Shown: positions 39,425 to 50,191 of the stretch, one piece after another
How the letters are laid out: every line of letters begins with the position of its first letter
Numbering within the stretch: position 1 is the first letter of the stretch
Assembly: GCA_008638415.1 (NCBI GenBank)
Contig: VWVT01000012.1
Coordinates: 62,001 to 126,000 of the forward strand
From: Nocardiopsis sinuspersici
GTDB lineage: Bacteria > Actinomycetota > Actinomycetes > Streptosporangiales > Streptosporangiaceae
Direction of reading: 5' to 3'
DNA length: 64,000 nucleotides
Made by a program: the position numbers and the translations under genes
Notes under the pieces: generated by a model
The model's database searches: none
Seen by the model: only the letters and a program-made list of their open reading frames with translations
Told to the model about the DNA's origin: nothing

Positions 39425-40171
39425 TCACAGGGGCGGGCCGTGGCCCGGTTCCTCCTGGTGGGAGAAGCGCTGTTCCCGCCAGGGGTCGGCACGGTTGTGG
39501 TAGCCGCGCTCCTCCCAGAAGCCACGGCGGTCCGCGGTCATGTACTCCACCGCGCGCAGCCACTTCACGCTCTTCCACCCGTACAGGTGCGGTACCACCA
39601 GCCGCAGCGGGGCACCGTGCTCGGGGCCGAGCGGCTCCCCGCCCCGGTGGGTGGCCAGCAGCACCCCCTCGGACAGGAAGTCGTCCAGGCGCAGGTTCGC
39701 GCTGTAGCCGTACTCGCCCCAGGCCATCACGTGCGTCACCTCGGGCGCGGGCGGGACGGCGGCGACCAGGTCGGCGGCGCTCACCCCGTGCCAGGGCACC
39801 TCGGGGATGCTGAAGCGCATCACGCAGTGGAAGTCGCTCGTCGAGTCCACACGCGGAAGCCGGGTGAACTCCTCCCACGTCCAGCGGTAGGACCCCAGGT
39901 CCTCGGTCGCCCCCATGATCCGGAAGTCCCACCTTCGCGGGCGGAAGGCGGGAACCGGTCCGTAGTACAGCGGCTTGTGCTCGTGGCGCACCGCCTGGCC
40001 CGGAGGCAGCCGCGACCGGTCTTCCCTCGCGCCGCCCCCGTCCGTTCCCTCGGACAATCCGTCCCCCTGCTCGTCTCTCGGCCCCCGGGGCCGTGCCCGC
40101 CCGGTCGGAGCGGGACGCGCTCCCGGCGTCCGGCCATCCTGCCAGGCGCCGACGAGAGCCAGGTCACTCAC
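39425..40171 (-). CDS. Sulfite-oxidase-like molybdopterin oxidoreductase
   Basis: 248 aa from GTG 40171; an earlier start is possible but the added residues look unlike protein. SUOX/MsrP-type fold with the molybdenum-ligating Cys in STSDFHCVMRFS (about residue 120), then VPWHGVSAADL, DDFLSEGVLLATHRGGEPLGPEHG and LRLVVPHLYGWKSVKWL, all family signatures. It lacks a Tat signal, so it is cytoplasmic. Substrate unknown (sulfite or a sulfoxide). Convergent with macS and divergent from the aro leader. Confidence 0.88.
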   Translation of the reverse strand: MSDLALVGAWQDGRTPGARPAPTGRARPRGPRDEQGDGLSEGTDGGGAREDRSRLPPGQAVRHEHKPLYYGPVPAFRPRRWDFRIMGATEDLGSYRWTWEEFTRLPRVDSTSDFHCVMRFSIPEVPWHGVSAADLVAAVPPAPEVTHVMAWGEYGYSANLRLDDFLSEGVLLATHRGGEPLGPEHGAPLRLVVPHLYGWKSVKWLRAVEYMTADRRGFWEERGYHNRADPWREQRFSHQEEPGHGPPL

Positions 40172-40203
40172 CCCGGTCGTGCGCGAACCCGGGGGGAGTG
40201 CGC

Positions 40204-40209
40204 TATAGT
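40204..40209 (+). promoter_or_regulatory. -10 element of the aroF leader promoter
   Basis: TATAGT, close to TATAAT. A start site six to eight bases downstream would fall on or next to the leader-peptide ATG (40217), giving a leaderless leader peptide. No clear -35. Confidence 0.6.
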
Positions 40210-40216
40210 CACTGCC

Positions 40217-40288
40217 ATGCAGCGAAACTTCTGGCGCTTTTATGGCTACCGGCCCGATACCCCGGTCGCCTGTAAAGCGCTGCGCTGA
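40217..40288 (+). CDS. Aromatic-rich leader peptide of DAHP synthase
   Basis: 23 codons: MQRNFWRFYGY followed by RPDTPVACKALR and TGA. Five of residues 5-11 are aromatic (Phe, Trp, Phe, Tyr, Tyr), so all three end products of the shikimate pathway are sampled. It starts just after a strong -10 and is followed by a terminator hairpin, and the next gene is the first enzyme of aromatic biosynthesis. This is the layout of ribosome-mediated attenuation. I infer that shortage of charged aromatic tRNAs stalls the ribosome and favours read-through. Confidence 0.85.
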   Translation: MQRNFWRFYGYRPDTPVACKALR

Positions 40289-40331
40289 CACAGACGACTT
40301 GAACCCCGGGCCGGTAGAGCCCGGGGTTTTC
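40246..40331 (+). promoter_or_regulatory. Attenuator with alternative pairing upstream of aroF
   Basis: Terminator: AACCCCGGG (40302-40310) pairs with CCCGGGGTT (40320-40328), then TTCTCG. Alternative: CTACCGGCCC (40246-40255, inside the leader ORF) is exactly complementary to GGGCCGGTAG (40308-40317), which overlaps the terminator arm and loop, so the two cannot form together. A third helix, GCGCTTT (40234-40240) with AAAGCGC (40274-40280), encloses the first antiterminator arm and covers the Trp-Arg-Phe codons, so a ribosome there would melt it. Confidence 0.75.
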
Positions 40332-40392
40332 TCGTGTCCCGGGCTTCACGCGGTTCGGACCTCCAACCGACAAGCAGCTAGGGACACCCCAC

Positions 40393-41439
40393 ATGGTCAT
40401 CGTGATGGCACCGGACGCCACCTCGGACAACATCGGCGATCTCGTCGAACTCGTCGCCTCCGCCGGAGGCGAGGCCTACGTGACGCGCGGCGTGAGCCGC
40501 ACGATCATCGGCCTCGTCGGCGACGTCGAGCGCTTCCAGGACCTGGGCCTGGCCGCCAAGCCGGGGGTCAGCGACGTCCTGCGCATCTCCGTCCCCTACA
40601 AGCTCGTCAGCCGCGAGAACCACGACAGCCGCAGCGTCGTCAGTGTGCGCGGCGTGCCCATCGGCGGCGACAACGTCACCGTCATCGCCGGGCCGTGCGC
40701 CGTCGAGACCCCCGAGCAGACCCTCGCCGCGGCGCGGATGGCGCTGGAGGCCGGTGCGTCCCTGCTGCGCGGCGGCGCCTACAAGCCCCGCACCTCCCCC
40801 TACGCCTTCCAGGGCCTGGGCGAGGAGGGCCTGAAGATCCTCTCCGAGGTGCGCACCGAGACCGGACTGCCCATCGTCACCGAGGTCGTGGACGCCGCCG
40901 ACGTCGAACTCGTCGCCTCCTACGCCGACATGCTCCAGGTCGGCACCCGCAACATGCAGAACTTCGCCCTCCTGCAGGCCGTGGGCGACGCGGGCAAGCC
41001 CGTCCTGCTCAAACGCGGCATGAGCGCCACCATCGAGGAGTGGCTGATGGCCGCCGAGTACATCGCCCAGCGCGGCAACCTCGACATCGTCCTGTGCGAG
41101 CGCGGCATCCGCACCTTCGAGAAGGCCACCCGCAACACCCTTGACATCAGCGCCGTCCCGGTCGCCCAGAGCCTGTCCCACCTGCCGGTGATCGTCGACC
41201 CGTCCCATTCGGGCGGCAAGCGCGACCTGGTCCTGCCGCTCTCGCGCGCGGCCGTCGCGGTCGGCGCCGACGGTGTCATCGTGGACGTGCACCCGAGCCC
41301 CGAGAGCGCCCTGTGCGACGGCCCGCAGGCCCTCCTGCGGGAGGACCTGGCCGAGCTGCGGGACCTGGCGGGCACCCTGGCCACCCTGAACGGGCGTGTC
41401 CTCACCCCGGCGCCCGACCTCCAGCCGACCCGCATATGA
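40393..41439 (+). CDS. aroF: 3-deoxy-7-phosphoheptulonate synthase, type I-beta
   Basis: 348 aa. Condenses phosphoenolpyruvate and erythrose 4-phosphate, the entry step of the shikimate pathway. An N-terminal ferredoxin-like regulatory domain (about 1-70, MVIVMAPDATSDNIGDLVEL) is typical of the I-beta class (Thermotoga-like), where it mediates feedback by Tyr/Phe. The barrel contains IAGPCAVETPEQ (metal Cys), GGAYKPRTSPYAFQGLG, VGTRNMQNF, LLKRGMSATIEEW, LCERGIRTFE and VDPSHSGGKRDLV. The attenuator upstream plus this domain imply control at both RNA and enzyme level. Confidence 0.95.
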   Translation: MVIVMAPDATSDNIGDLVELVASAGGEAYVTRGVSRTIIGLVGDVERFQDLGLAAKPGVSDVLRISVPYKLVSRENHDSRSVVSVRGVPIGGDNVTVIAGPCAVETPEQTLAAARMALEAGASLLRGGAYKPRTSPYAFQGLGEEGLKILSEVRTETGLPIVTEVVDAADVELVASYADMLQVGTRNMQNFALLQAVGDAGKPVLLKRGMSATIEEWLMAAEYIAQRGNLDIVLCERGIRTFEKATRNTLDISAVPVAQSLSHLPVIVDPSHSGGKRDLVLPLSRAAVAVGADGVIVDVHPSPESALCDGPQALLREDLAELRDLAGTLATLNGRVLTPAPDLQPTRI

Positions 41440-48696: not shown

Positions 48697-49938
48697 CTAC
48701 TCCCACTGCTTCCGCTTCGTCGTGCCCCCGCCGCCGAACACCCGGTCCGCGGCGAAGCGCTGGGCGTACTCCGGCAGGACGCCGGTGGTCAGTGCCCGGG
48801 CCATGACCTCGCCGGTGACCGGGGTCAGCAGCACCCCGTGCCGGAAGTGCCCGGCGGCCAGGTGCAGCCCCGGTACCCGGGTGGGGCCCAGCAGGGGCTC
48901 GTTGTCGGGTGAGCCCGGGCGCAGGCCCACACAGGTCTCGGTGATCTCCAGCTCACTCACCCCGGGGACGAGTTCGCGTGCGTCCCGGAGCACCTGCCAC
49001 AGCCCCCCGGCGGTGAGCGAGGTGTCGTGGCCCAGCTCCTCCTGGGTGGCGCCGATGACCACCTCGCCGTCGGCGCGCGGCACCAGGTAGGTCGGAAAGC
49101 CCCTGACGAGTCCGCGGACCGTCCGGCCGACGATCGGCGGCTCACCGGCGGGCACCCGGGCGCGCAGCAGCTGGCCCTTGACCGGGCGCAGCGGCGGGAC
49201 CACCGGCTCGGGGACCCCGACCGCGTCGCCCCAGCAGCCCGCGGCCAGGACCGCCTGGTCGGCGGGCAGCAGCCGACCGTCGTCCAGGCGCACGCCCAGC
49301 CGGGTGCCGTCCGGGCCGGGGGCGAGGACCTCCTCGGCCCGCCCGGCGATCTCGGTGACGCCCGCGCGCTCGCCCGCCACGGCCAGGGCGCGCAGCAGCC
49401 GCCGCGGGTCCACGGAGTGGTCGTCGGGGGCCAGGAGGCCGCCGCGCACGGACGGGGCCAGCATCGGCTCCAGGCGTCGGCACCCGCGGCTGGTCAGGCG
49501 TTCGGTGGCGATGCCCAGGCGCTGGTGGAGTTCGTGCAGTTCGGTGAGGACGGCCAGGTCGTCGCGGTCGAAGGCGACCAGGAGCGTGCCGGTGGCGCGG
49601 TGGCCCACGCCGAGGCCGCTGGCCTCCTCCAGTTCGGTGACGAAGTCGGCGTACATGGCAGCGGAGCGGACCCCCAGCTCCATGAGGGGCTCCTCGCCGA
49701 ACACCGCCTCGGTGGCGGGGGTGAGCATGCCCGCCGCGACGGTGGAGGCGGCGCGGGCCCCGGCCGGGTCGGCCACGGGGTCGGGTTCGACCAGGGTGAC
49801 GGACAGCCCCCGTTGGGCGGCGCGCCAGGCGGTGACACGCCCGACGAGGCCGCCGCCGACCACGACGACGCCGCGGTCGCCGGCACGTCCGTCGGTGGGG
49901 TGCCCCATGGGGGAGCGGGGGGTGTTCGAAGTGCGCAC
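48697..49938 (-). CDS. thiO: Glycine oxidase ThiO
   Basis: 413 aa from GTG 49938. The start is chosen because GGGAGGGGA lies ten bases upstream, whereas ATG 49908 has no such site; longer readings would run into the riboswitch. FAD-dependent oxidase: GVVVVGGGLVGRVTAWRAAQRGLSVTLVEPD Rossmann motif near the N-terminus, middle PVKGQLLRAR, and the C-terminal FAD loop GLHLAAGHFRHGVLLTPVTG. It oxidises glycine to the imine used by ThiG in aerobic thiamine synthesis. First gene of the TPP-controlled thiOSG operon. Confidence 0.95.
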   Translation of the reverse strand: MRTSNTPRSPMGHPTDGRAGDRGVVVVGGGLVGRVTAWRAAQRGLSVTLVEPDPVADPAGARAASTVAAGMLTPATEAVFGEEPLMELGVRSAAMYADFVTELEEASGLGVGHRATGTLLVAFDRDDLAVLTELHELHQRLGIATERLTSRGCRRLEPMLAPSVRGGLLAPDDHSVDPRRLLRALAVAGERAGVTEIAGRAEEVLAPGPDGTRLGVRLDDGRLLPADQAVLAAGCWGDAVGVPEPVVPPLRPVKGQLLRARVPAGEPPIVGRTVRGLVRGFPTYLVPRADGEVVIGATQEELGHDTSLTAGGLWQVLRDARELVPGVSELEITETCVGLRPGSPDNEPLLGPTRVPGLHLAAGHFRHGVLLTPVTGEVMARALTTGVLPEYAQRFAADRVFGGGGTTKRKQWE

Positions 49939-49950
49939 GGCGCTGGTCTC

Positions 49951-50040
49951 CCCTCCCTTCGCCGGCATGATCCGGATCAGGTTCGTGCGGTCGGAGGCTG
50001 CCAGCCTCCCTCTCAGCCGGGTATCACCCGGCTCCCGCGG
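49951..50040 (-). ncRNA. TPP riboswitch (THI element)
   Basis: On the minus strand: CGGGAGCC ... CCCGGCTGAGAGGGAGGC, then ACCGCACGAACCTGATC and CGGATCATGCCGGCGAAGGGA. These are the conserved pyrimidine-sensing (CUGAGA) and pyrophosphate-sensing (ACCUGAUCNGGNUNAUNCNNGCGNAGGGA) parts of the thi box. Its 3' end runs straight into the purine-rich Shine-Dalgarno of thiO, so control is probably at translation initiation. Confidence 0.97.
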
Positions 50041-50191
50041 GATGTGTGGGTCCGTCCCCATTCTAGGGCGTGTCCGCCGAACACGCCCTGGGGCCTCCGC
50101 CGGAGCGGGAAACGGGCGGATTCCGAGCCGAGAGCCGTCTCATCCGCGCCACAGGTGCACCGCACGTGCGGGGATGTGGCAGATTGGTGCC

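Follow-up and report, generated by a model that had tools for sequence, protein, structure and literature searches.

Leaders of the trpL and pheL type in Proteobacteria combine control codons, mutually exclusive helices and a terminator, and in the classic attenuation scheme a ribosome that stalls on the control codons frees arm 2. The AroR transcript of Corynebacterium glutamicum is said to have been found leaderless by Neshat and colleagues in 2014. In the excerpts of the literature drawn on here, a Phe-Tyr-Phe leader peptide precedes aroF (cg1129) of C. glutamicum and its attenuator transcript was detected by RNA-seq (PMC4046766), and stalling under Phe limitation was reported to enhance transcription, with no response to Tyr (PMC11802643); the AroR work (Neshat et al., 2014) is cited in PMC8079986 and PMC11802643. 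Amino acid attenuators of Actinobacteria such as TrpL1 of Streptomyces lividans, as excerpted, have a leaderless peptide, a Rho-independent terminator and an amino acid matched to the gene, and the RNA-seq table in the same excerpts holds eight leaders, none of them for aroF or a chorismate mutase (PMC8079986). The authors of a 2005 survey, in the retrieved portion, report having observed no conserved RNA structure upstream of phenylalanine/tyrosine operons in Actinobacteria (PMC1262725), and the terms DAHP, chorismate, aroF, aromatic and pheL are absent from the main text, as retrieved, of a premature-terminator survey (PMC2965389). Excerpts from the open-licence PMC literature yielded no description of an aroF leader in the present group, of a three-way codon set, of the fold reported below or of a Streptomyces chorismate mutase leader. 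Given these statements of the 2005 survey (PMC1262725) and the S. lividans table (PMC8079986), the aroF and chorismate mutase leaders would be unlisted control points.

In the current study, we characterized the region upstream of aroF in a 64,000-nt stretch of DNA from Nocardiopsis sinuspersici (hereafter, the window), whose genome measures 6.15 Mb. We consider it highly likely that aroF is controlled by a ribosome-mediated transcription attenuator carried on a leaderless transcript, and the leader very probably lets the ribosome sense Phe, Trp and Tyr and decide whether aroF is read. This kind of system is already known, AroR of C. glutamicum being the precedent, and the initial annotation had been right to recall attenuation of aro genes in Corynebacterium (PMC4046766 and PMC11802643, as excerpted). 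As in AroR, a leader peptide with aromatic codons stands before a DAHP synthase gene; AroR, however, has Phe-Tyr-Phe with no mention of Trp in the excerpts, whereas the window peptide carries FWRFYGY and lacks the Phe-Tyr-Phe motif, as the latter is given in the excerpts. PF18152 matches 2 of 14 control genomes and is present in the window's DAHP synthase; C. glutamicum has no match to it, so AroR's target would belong to another subfamily. The window leader shares with TrpL1 a leaderless peptide (predicted in the window), a terminator and amino acids matched to the gene, but TrpL1 reads one amino acid and controls trpE, whereas here three aromatics are encoded before aroF. Control codons, exclusive helices and a terminator likewise recall trpL and pheL of Proteobacteria; unlike in those, the start is predicted to be leaderless, one peptide would serve three end products, an extra conserved hairpin spans the stop codon, and arm 2 would be left uncovered by a ribosome on the stop codon. 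Calling peptide and fold a distinct class was too strong, as the anatomy is that of a ribosome-mediated attenuator with a distinctive fold.

The features of the locus are collected in Table 1. In profile searches, the aroF product matched PF00793 (271.7 bits), PF18152 (60.9 bits) and NF006421 (474.1 bits, cut-off 335), and it belongs to the type I-beta DAHP synthases. Its best named relative, at 94% identity, comes from a Nocardiopsis.

Table 1. Features of the aroF leader region, in window coordinates.
Feature	Position	Strand	Remarks
-10 box TATAGT	40204-40209	+	predicted transcription start 40216-40217, i.e. leaderless
Leader ORF, 23 codons plus TGA, peptide MQRNFWRFYGYRPDTPVACKALR	40217-40288	+	ATG 40217-40219, read from sequence
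Control codons TTC TGG CGC TTT TAT GGC TAC (F5 W6 R7 F8 Y9 G10 Y11)	40229-40249	+	
Peptide-region hairpin	40232-40282	+	40232-40240 with 40274-40282; 40244-40246 with 40268-40270; 40248-40252 with 40262-40266
Arm 2, antiterminator 5' strand	40246-40256	+	
Hairpin spanning stop codon, inside antiterminator	40264-40299	+	40264-40268 with 40295-40299; 40270-40273 with 40290-40293
Intrinsic terminator within GGGGTTTTCTC	40301-40331	+	stem 40301-40311 with 40319-40329, T run 40327-40330
Arm 3, antiterminator 3' strand, overlaps terminator 5' arm	40307-40317	+	
aroF	40393-41439	+	348 aa, type I-beta DAHP synthase, N-terminal ferredoxin-like domain

Among the best 80 of 579 named loci encoding aroF relatives, an aromatic leader peptide was found at 43, on the same strand and starting 138-228 nt upstream of aroF. 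The groups that bear it include Nocardiopsis, Streptomonospora, Microbispora, Planotetraspora, Herbidospora, Nonomuraea, Actinomadura, Actinoallomurus, some Nocardioides and MAGs. No leader was counted at the remaining 37 of the 80 loci; 13 of them (L049-L051, L055, L056, L062, L064, L067, L072, L076, L079, L080, and L082) hold an aromatic short ORF that by eye is not a leader, and at none of these 13 does the box-plus-ORF pattern occur within 320 nt. Upstream DNA was read by eye at 24 loci, which added only L048; the 37 loci without a counted leader include 14 outside this reading, and L075 offers only 143 nt of upstream DNA. A leader also precedes aroF in four further genomes of the phylum (L102, L103, L105, and L108), in which genes were recognised by motif or by eye; the L105 copy of aroF is missing its first part, and for L108 the peptide comes from a by-eye reading of the reverse strand.

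A mechanical pattern, consisting of TANNNT, 6-8 nt and an ORF of 12-35 codons with at least three F, W or Y in residues 2-16, matched the window only once in 128000 nt of both strands, at the aroF leader itself. In the 80 relatives it matched at 40 loci in the 320 nt preceding aroF (25600 nt in total), each of them a counted leader, against 5 matches in 918848 nt elsewhere on both strands, a background that is unmatched for promoter regions; L048, L065, and L070 are counted leaders outside the pattern. In principle the hairpin might serve simply as a terminator or insulator, with the ORF open by chance, as terminators between genes are common and the arm matches are individually weak when set against synonymous recoding, but the concentration of the pattern before aroF, the leader at 43 of 80 loci and an upstream neighbor in the window that lies on the opposite strand make this hardly credible.

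Flanks sampled at six leader-less loci showed that such aroF relatives can adjoin specialised-metabolism-like genes: a glyoxalase/dioxygenase-family gene and a type I chorismate mutase at L030, an AMP-binding enzyme at L061, and a ketoacyl synthase at L074. All aromatic amino acids, and many actinomycete antibiotics, are made by way of DAHP synthase, and it would make sense if end-product control had been lost at loci of this type.

The strong -10 box and immediate 23-codon ORF of the initial annotation were read again from the sequence, the ORF starting 7 nt past TATAGT. When the window is added to the 43 relatives, 43 of the 44 leaders have a TANNNT box at -12 to -16 (first base, counted from the start codon; 28 at -13), L070 being the sole leader without one. 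GAGG, AGGAG and GGAGG occur in none of the 44 within 18 nt before the start codon, and GGAG occurs there in L070 and L071. Because of this spacing and the lack of GAGG, AGGAG and GGAGG before the start codons, the aroF transcript is predicted to be leaderless. As a separate observation, TGCGC lies directly 5' of the -10 box (TGCGCTANNNT, window 40199-40209) and is common to many leaders of different families.

Phe, Trp and Tyr codons are all present in 35 of the 44 aroF leaders (Phe in 44, Trp in 36, Tyr in 43); Trp makes up 0.3% of aroF residues, yet it is found in those 36 leaders. That a single short peptide covers all three, as initially proposed, is true by sequence, and sets these leaders apart from the chorismate mutase and trpE-type leaders described below, which carry codons for their own products only. 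All three amino acids may act in vivo. Escherichia coli has three feedback-inhibited DAHP synthase isoenzymes, and if a single leader senses three products, one RNA would do the work of these three. Codon choice is also unusual: Phe is written TTT at 45 of 88 positions in the leaders vs. 0 of 257 in the downstream aroF genes, and Tyr is written TAT at 41 of 62 vs. 1 of 204. Most of the stretch that holds these codons is unpaired in the L017 fold (Streptosporangiaceae), so UUU and UAU are not accounted for by pairing there. Such heavy use of UUU and UAU makes the leaders a clean test case for whether synonymous codon choice tunes attenuation. The second Tyr codon had been suggested as a site where stalling decides the outcome; its TAC (40247-40249) is indeed overlapped by the antiterminator arm, but this is not a general feature, and Y11 was rejected as a generally decisive site because outside Nocardiopsidaceae the position is mostly Asp, His, Asn or others.

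Two folds compete in the leader RNA. The first, over 40217-40336, has -58.0 kcal/mol (z -5.1; none of 200 shuffles as good) and comprises the peptide-region hairpin plus the terminator. Both had been proposed from the sequence, the terminator stem being now read and folded, and the third helix over the aromatic codons appearing in the minimum-energy fold from 40232-40240/40274-40282 onward to 40244-40252/40262-40270, where it hides arm 2. The second, over 40244-40317, has -38.2 kcal/mol (z -5.3; again none of 200 shuffles as good) and is an 11-bp helix enclosing the stop-codon hairpin, an element absent from the initial annotation. The perfect 10-bp helix described there (40246-40255 with 40308-40317) is perfect, but its length is 11 bp. 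Since the antiterminator helix uses the 5' arm of the terminator, the two folds are mutually exclusive. Rfam release 15 gave no match at the gathering score for 40150-40420, and matches with E up to 10 were to unrelated families below their cut-offs. Against synonymous recoding, the single-sequence match of arm 2 to arm 3 reached p<=0.05 in 12 of the 44 leaders with the codon use of two window genes and in 8 of 44 with leader codon use, four terminators being misplaced; the window itself gave p 0.047 and 0.050. As these values are only marginal, single-sequence significance was set aside as main evidence, and the weight for the arm 2-arm 3 pairing comes from conservation.

A MAFFT alignment was made of 33 of the 44 leaders, taken from the nearer families. 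In it, the eight core pairs of the antiterminator are formed in 85.9% of cells, and two arm 2-arm 3 columns covary, one between C-G and G-C (15 and 11 sequences) and one between G-C and A-U (20 and 11). None of 500 shuffles reached the paired percentage or the covariation score, whereas simpler counts of pairs and of types were reached by 12 and 268 of 500. Because the 11 switched sequences are one clade, this test overstates independence, and for that reason a lineage-swap comparison was made, in which the arm 2 of each of 15 lineages was set against its own and other lineages' terminators in 20000 permutations. By stem score, for which the terminators of L012, L034, L046, L047, and L048 were placed by hand-set anchors, 1 of 20000 permutations was as good as the cognate sum (p 5e-5), and by duplex energy p was 0.00065. 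Even in the distant lineages L057, L065, and L070 the cognate stem score exceeded every swapped one. An antiterminator that excludes the terminator is supported by covariation, the stem-score exceptions being Nocardioidaceae, L034, L041, and L071, where the cognate was not above the swapped, and L013, where it was about equal; by duplex energy L025 and L065 fail too and L071 passes. For the stop-codon hairpin, no permutation of 20000 was as good (13 lineages, 42 sequences; exceptions L011, L013, and L041), two leaders with short segments being left out of the hairpin lineage tests. The peptide-region hairpin was not significant (p 0.056), and in Nocardiopsidaceae arm 2 and its downstream partner paired no better than swapped segments. 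Among the conditions that the initial annotation named as jointly refuting its reading was a lack of conservation of peptide and alternative pairing; the peptide recurs at over half of the 80 loci (43) and the pairing is cognate across lineages with the exceptions given, so the reading, supported overall, was not refuted on this point.

The terminator-like hairpin is paired in 91.9% of cells of the 33 aligned leaders, and the RNAalifold consensus of this alignment contains the terminator only; two exclusive folds compete in it, and gaps introduced by MAFFT break the stop-codon hairpin. Control of aroF at translation, with leader hairpins hiding the ribosome site in place of termination, has a parallel in the S. 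lividans leuA leader, reported in the excerpts to lack a typical terminator (PMC8079986). Here, however, the hairpin is kept throughout the 33 aligned leaders and aroF begins 62 nt past the terminator, and we judge translational control to be very improbable.

For transcription attenuation, the following course may be proposed. RNA polymerase would start at the predicted site, so that the ribosome loads straight onto the 5' AUG. When too little of the tRNA for Phe or Trp, and probably also for Tyr, is charged, the ribosome would stall at codons 5-9, leaving arm 2 at or past its front edge while the stop-codon hairpin folds; arm 2 would then close over this hairpin by pairing with arm 3, the terminator would be blocked, and aroF would be transcribed. 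When aromatic tRNAs are charged, the ribosome would reach the stop codon, melt the stop-codon hairpin and stand between arms 2 and 3. With the arms held apart, arm 3 would pair with the 3' arm of the terminator and transcription would end.

Counted from where the A-site codon starts, the front edge of a ribosome is about 12 nt away. Across the 11 Streptosporangiaceae, arm 2 begins 8-9 nt after the start of the last aromatic codon and 11-21 nt after the starts of the earlier ones; in the window the 11-bp arm begins 17, 14, 8, and 5 nt after the starts of F5, W6, F8 and Y9, respectively, and is overlapped by Y11. In a stall model of equilibrium folding with a ribosome mask, the antiterminator probability for the window was 1.0 for a stall at F5, W6 or F8, 0.94 at Y9 and 0.63 at Y11. 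Modelled stalls at the first aromatic codon gave antiterminator means of 0.94-1.00 in four groups, and stalls at the last one gave lower values, with a mean of 0.47 in Nocardiopsidaceae. This drop at the last codon, seen at Y11 of the window as well, would be expected if a real attenuator sensed no more than one or two of the aromatics (Phe and/or Trp) and a stall at a Tyr codon covered the nearby arm 2, and AroR, with its Phe-Tyr-Phe, is reported in the excerpts to respond to Phe and not to Tyr (PMC11802643). On the other hand, Tyr occurs in all but one of the 44 aroF leaders, 41 of its 62 codons are the rare UAU, and the modelled stall at Y9 keeps most of the antiterminator; we therefore rate this narrower sensor as possible rather than probable.

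The equilibrium model backs stalling at Phe and Trp codons and fails to explain the off state. Modelled arm 2-arm 3 pairing with no ribosome and with a ribosome on the stop codon was 0.98 and 0.87 in Nocardiopsidaceae, 0.80 and 0.91 in Streptosporangiaceae, 0.37 and 0.63 in Thermomonosporaceae, and 0.41 and 0.56 in the rest. As equilibrium folding largely keeps the antiterminator in the off condition in the first two of these families, a kinetic or steric switch would be needed. In 39 of the 44 leaders the terminator has its start 15-22 nt past the stop codon's first base, which is just past a ribosome located there, and such a ribosome would sit on the stop-codon hairpin. We infer that it both melts this hairpin and separates the arms; the alternative is a race between folding and polymerase.

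Leaders were also found at other aromatic branch points. In the same genome, the leader MIRRYHVFSQPTLPSAART precedes a chorismate mutase gene (PF01817); Tyr and Phe are its only aromatics, and it is accompanied by a TAACAT box and a terminator-like hairpin. A gene with a PF04715 match (32.9 bits), and by that match probably trpE, is preceded by the leader MRHTTTQAQWWRRP (L124, G000:C9, position 946 onward), which follows a TACACT box, is predicted to be leaderless and contains Trp only. A chorismate mutase of this kind occurs in 116 of the 150 genomes searched within the order. The 30 best-scoring loci, which comprise that of the genome itself, 25 of its genus and 4 of two other genera, all carry a leader, with Trp in none and Phe as the sole aromatic in 6; the box belonged to the search pattern at these 30 loci and is no separate evidence. 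The fold of the genus's chorismate mutase leaders (L125-L150) differs from that of the aroF attenuator, with no obvious antiterminator by eye. These leaders start 187-272 nt upstream of the match, and by eye they show GCCGACG-/CGTCGGC-like copies in the peptide, past the stop codon and again past the terminator.

A model built from the aroF leaders (R1) was run on 396 Actinomycetota genomes and matched in 124 at E<=0.01, many of the listed matches being partial, restricted to the terminator end and not counted as leaders; 19 of 29 new loci were read. After the window, the best ten matches are full-length and belong to one family, whose genomes measure 6-10 Mb, and the eleventh is in another. 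All 11 precede a chorismate-mutase-like gene, PF01817 being confirmed in 7 of the 11 proteins, those that were scanned, and Trp occurs in one of the 11 leaders (L099). We call the family of ten Streptomyces-like, since S. lividans TrpL1 matches all 6 of its genomes tested. The ten Streptomyces-like genomes carry the aroF-type module before chorismate mutase, nine of them without Trp, and the typical peptide is MLTQTTFLFTYGNRPTGCHGRAA, with Leu in place of the Trp of the Nocardiopsis leader. The leader codons follow the branch, with Phe, Trp and Tyr at aroF, Tyr and Phe at chorismate mutase, and Trp only at the trpE-type gene.

From leader to terminator the locus would give a discrete RNA of ~115 nt, as would be needed if a trans-acting sRNA or a small protein were the actual product and control of aroF incidental. 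The codon set nevertheless changes with the downstream gene, and aromatic codons and alternative pairings recur upstream of aroF across lineages, so an independent product seems most unlikely. For the origin of the attenuator, we offer a tentative hypothesis that we think somewhat improbable as a whole: one ancestral leaderless module with a stop-codon-hairpin antiterminator may have been set before different branch points of Actinomycetota, its codons edited to Phe, Trp and Tyr at DAHP synthase and to Phe and Tyr at chorismate mutase in the Streptomyces-like genomes, with rare UUU and UAU sharpening the response and the off state arising from a stop-codon ribosome that separates the arms rather than covering one.

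The same genome has a second DAHP synthase gene (PF00793) on contig C5 (L001, G000:C5, reverse strand), upstream of which the leader pattern search found no aromatic leader and where a terminator-like GCGTCTCACGAAATGAGACGCTTTTTC is present; a class II enzyme is represented by a partial 35-bit match only. In L005, a record titled Glycomyces fuscus, aroF is 93% identical to that of the window and the leader peptide is identical, and its name or assembly looks doubtful. In the window, the nearest gene upstream of the leader, on the opposite strand, encodes a PF00174 domain protein. The mechanical start of this divergent molybdopterin-domain oxidoreductase ORF (39425-40291, minus strand) takes it through the leader on the opposite strand, and its true start is probably further in, because the Pfam domain begins only at residue 111. 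The window also contains a TPP riboswitch at 49937-50048 on the minus strand (67.8 bits).
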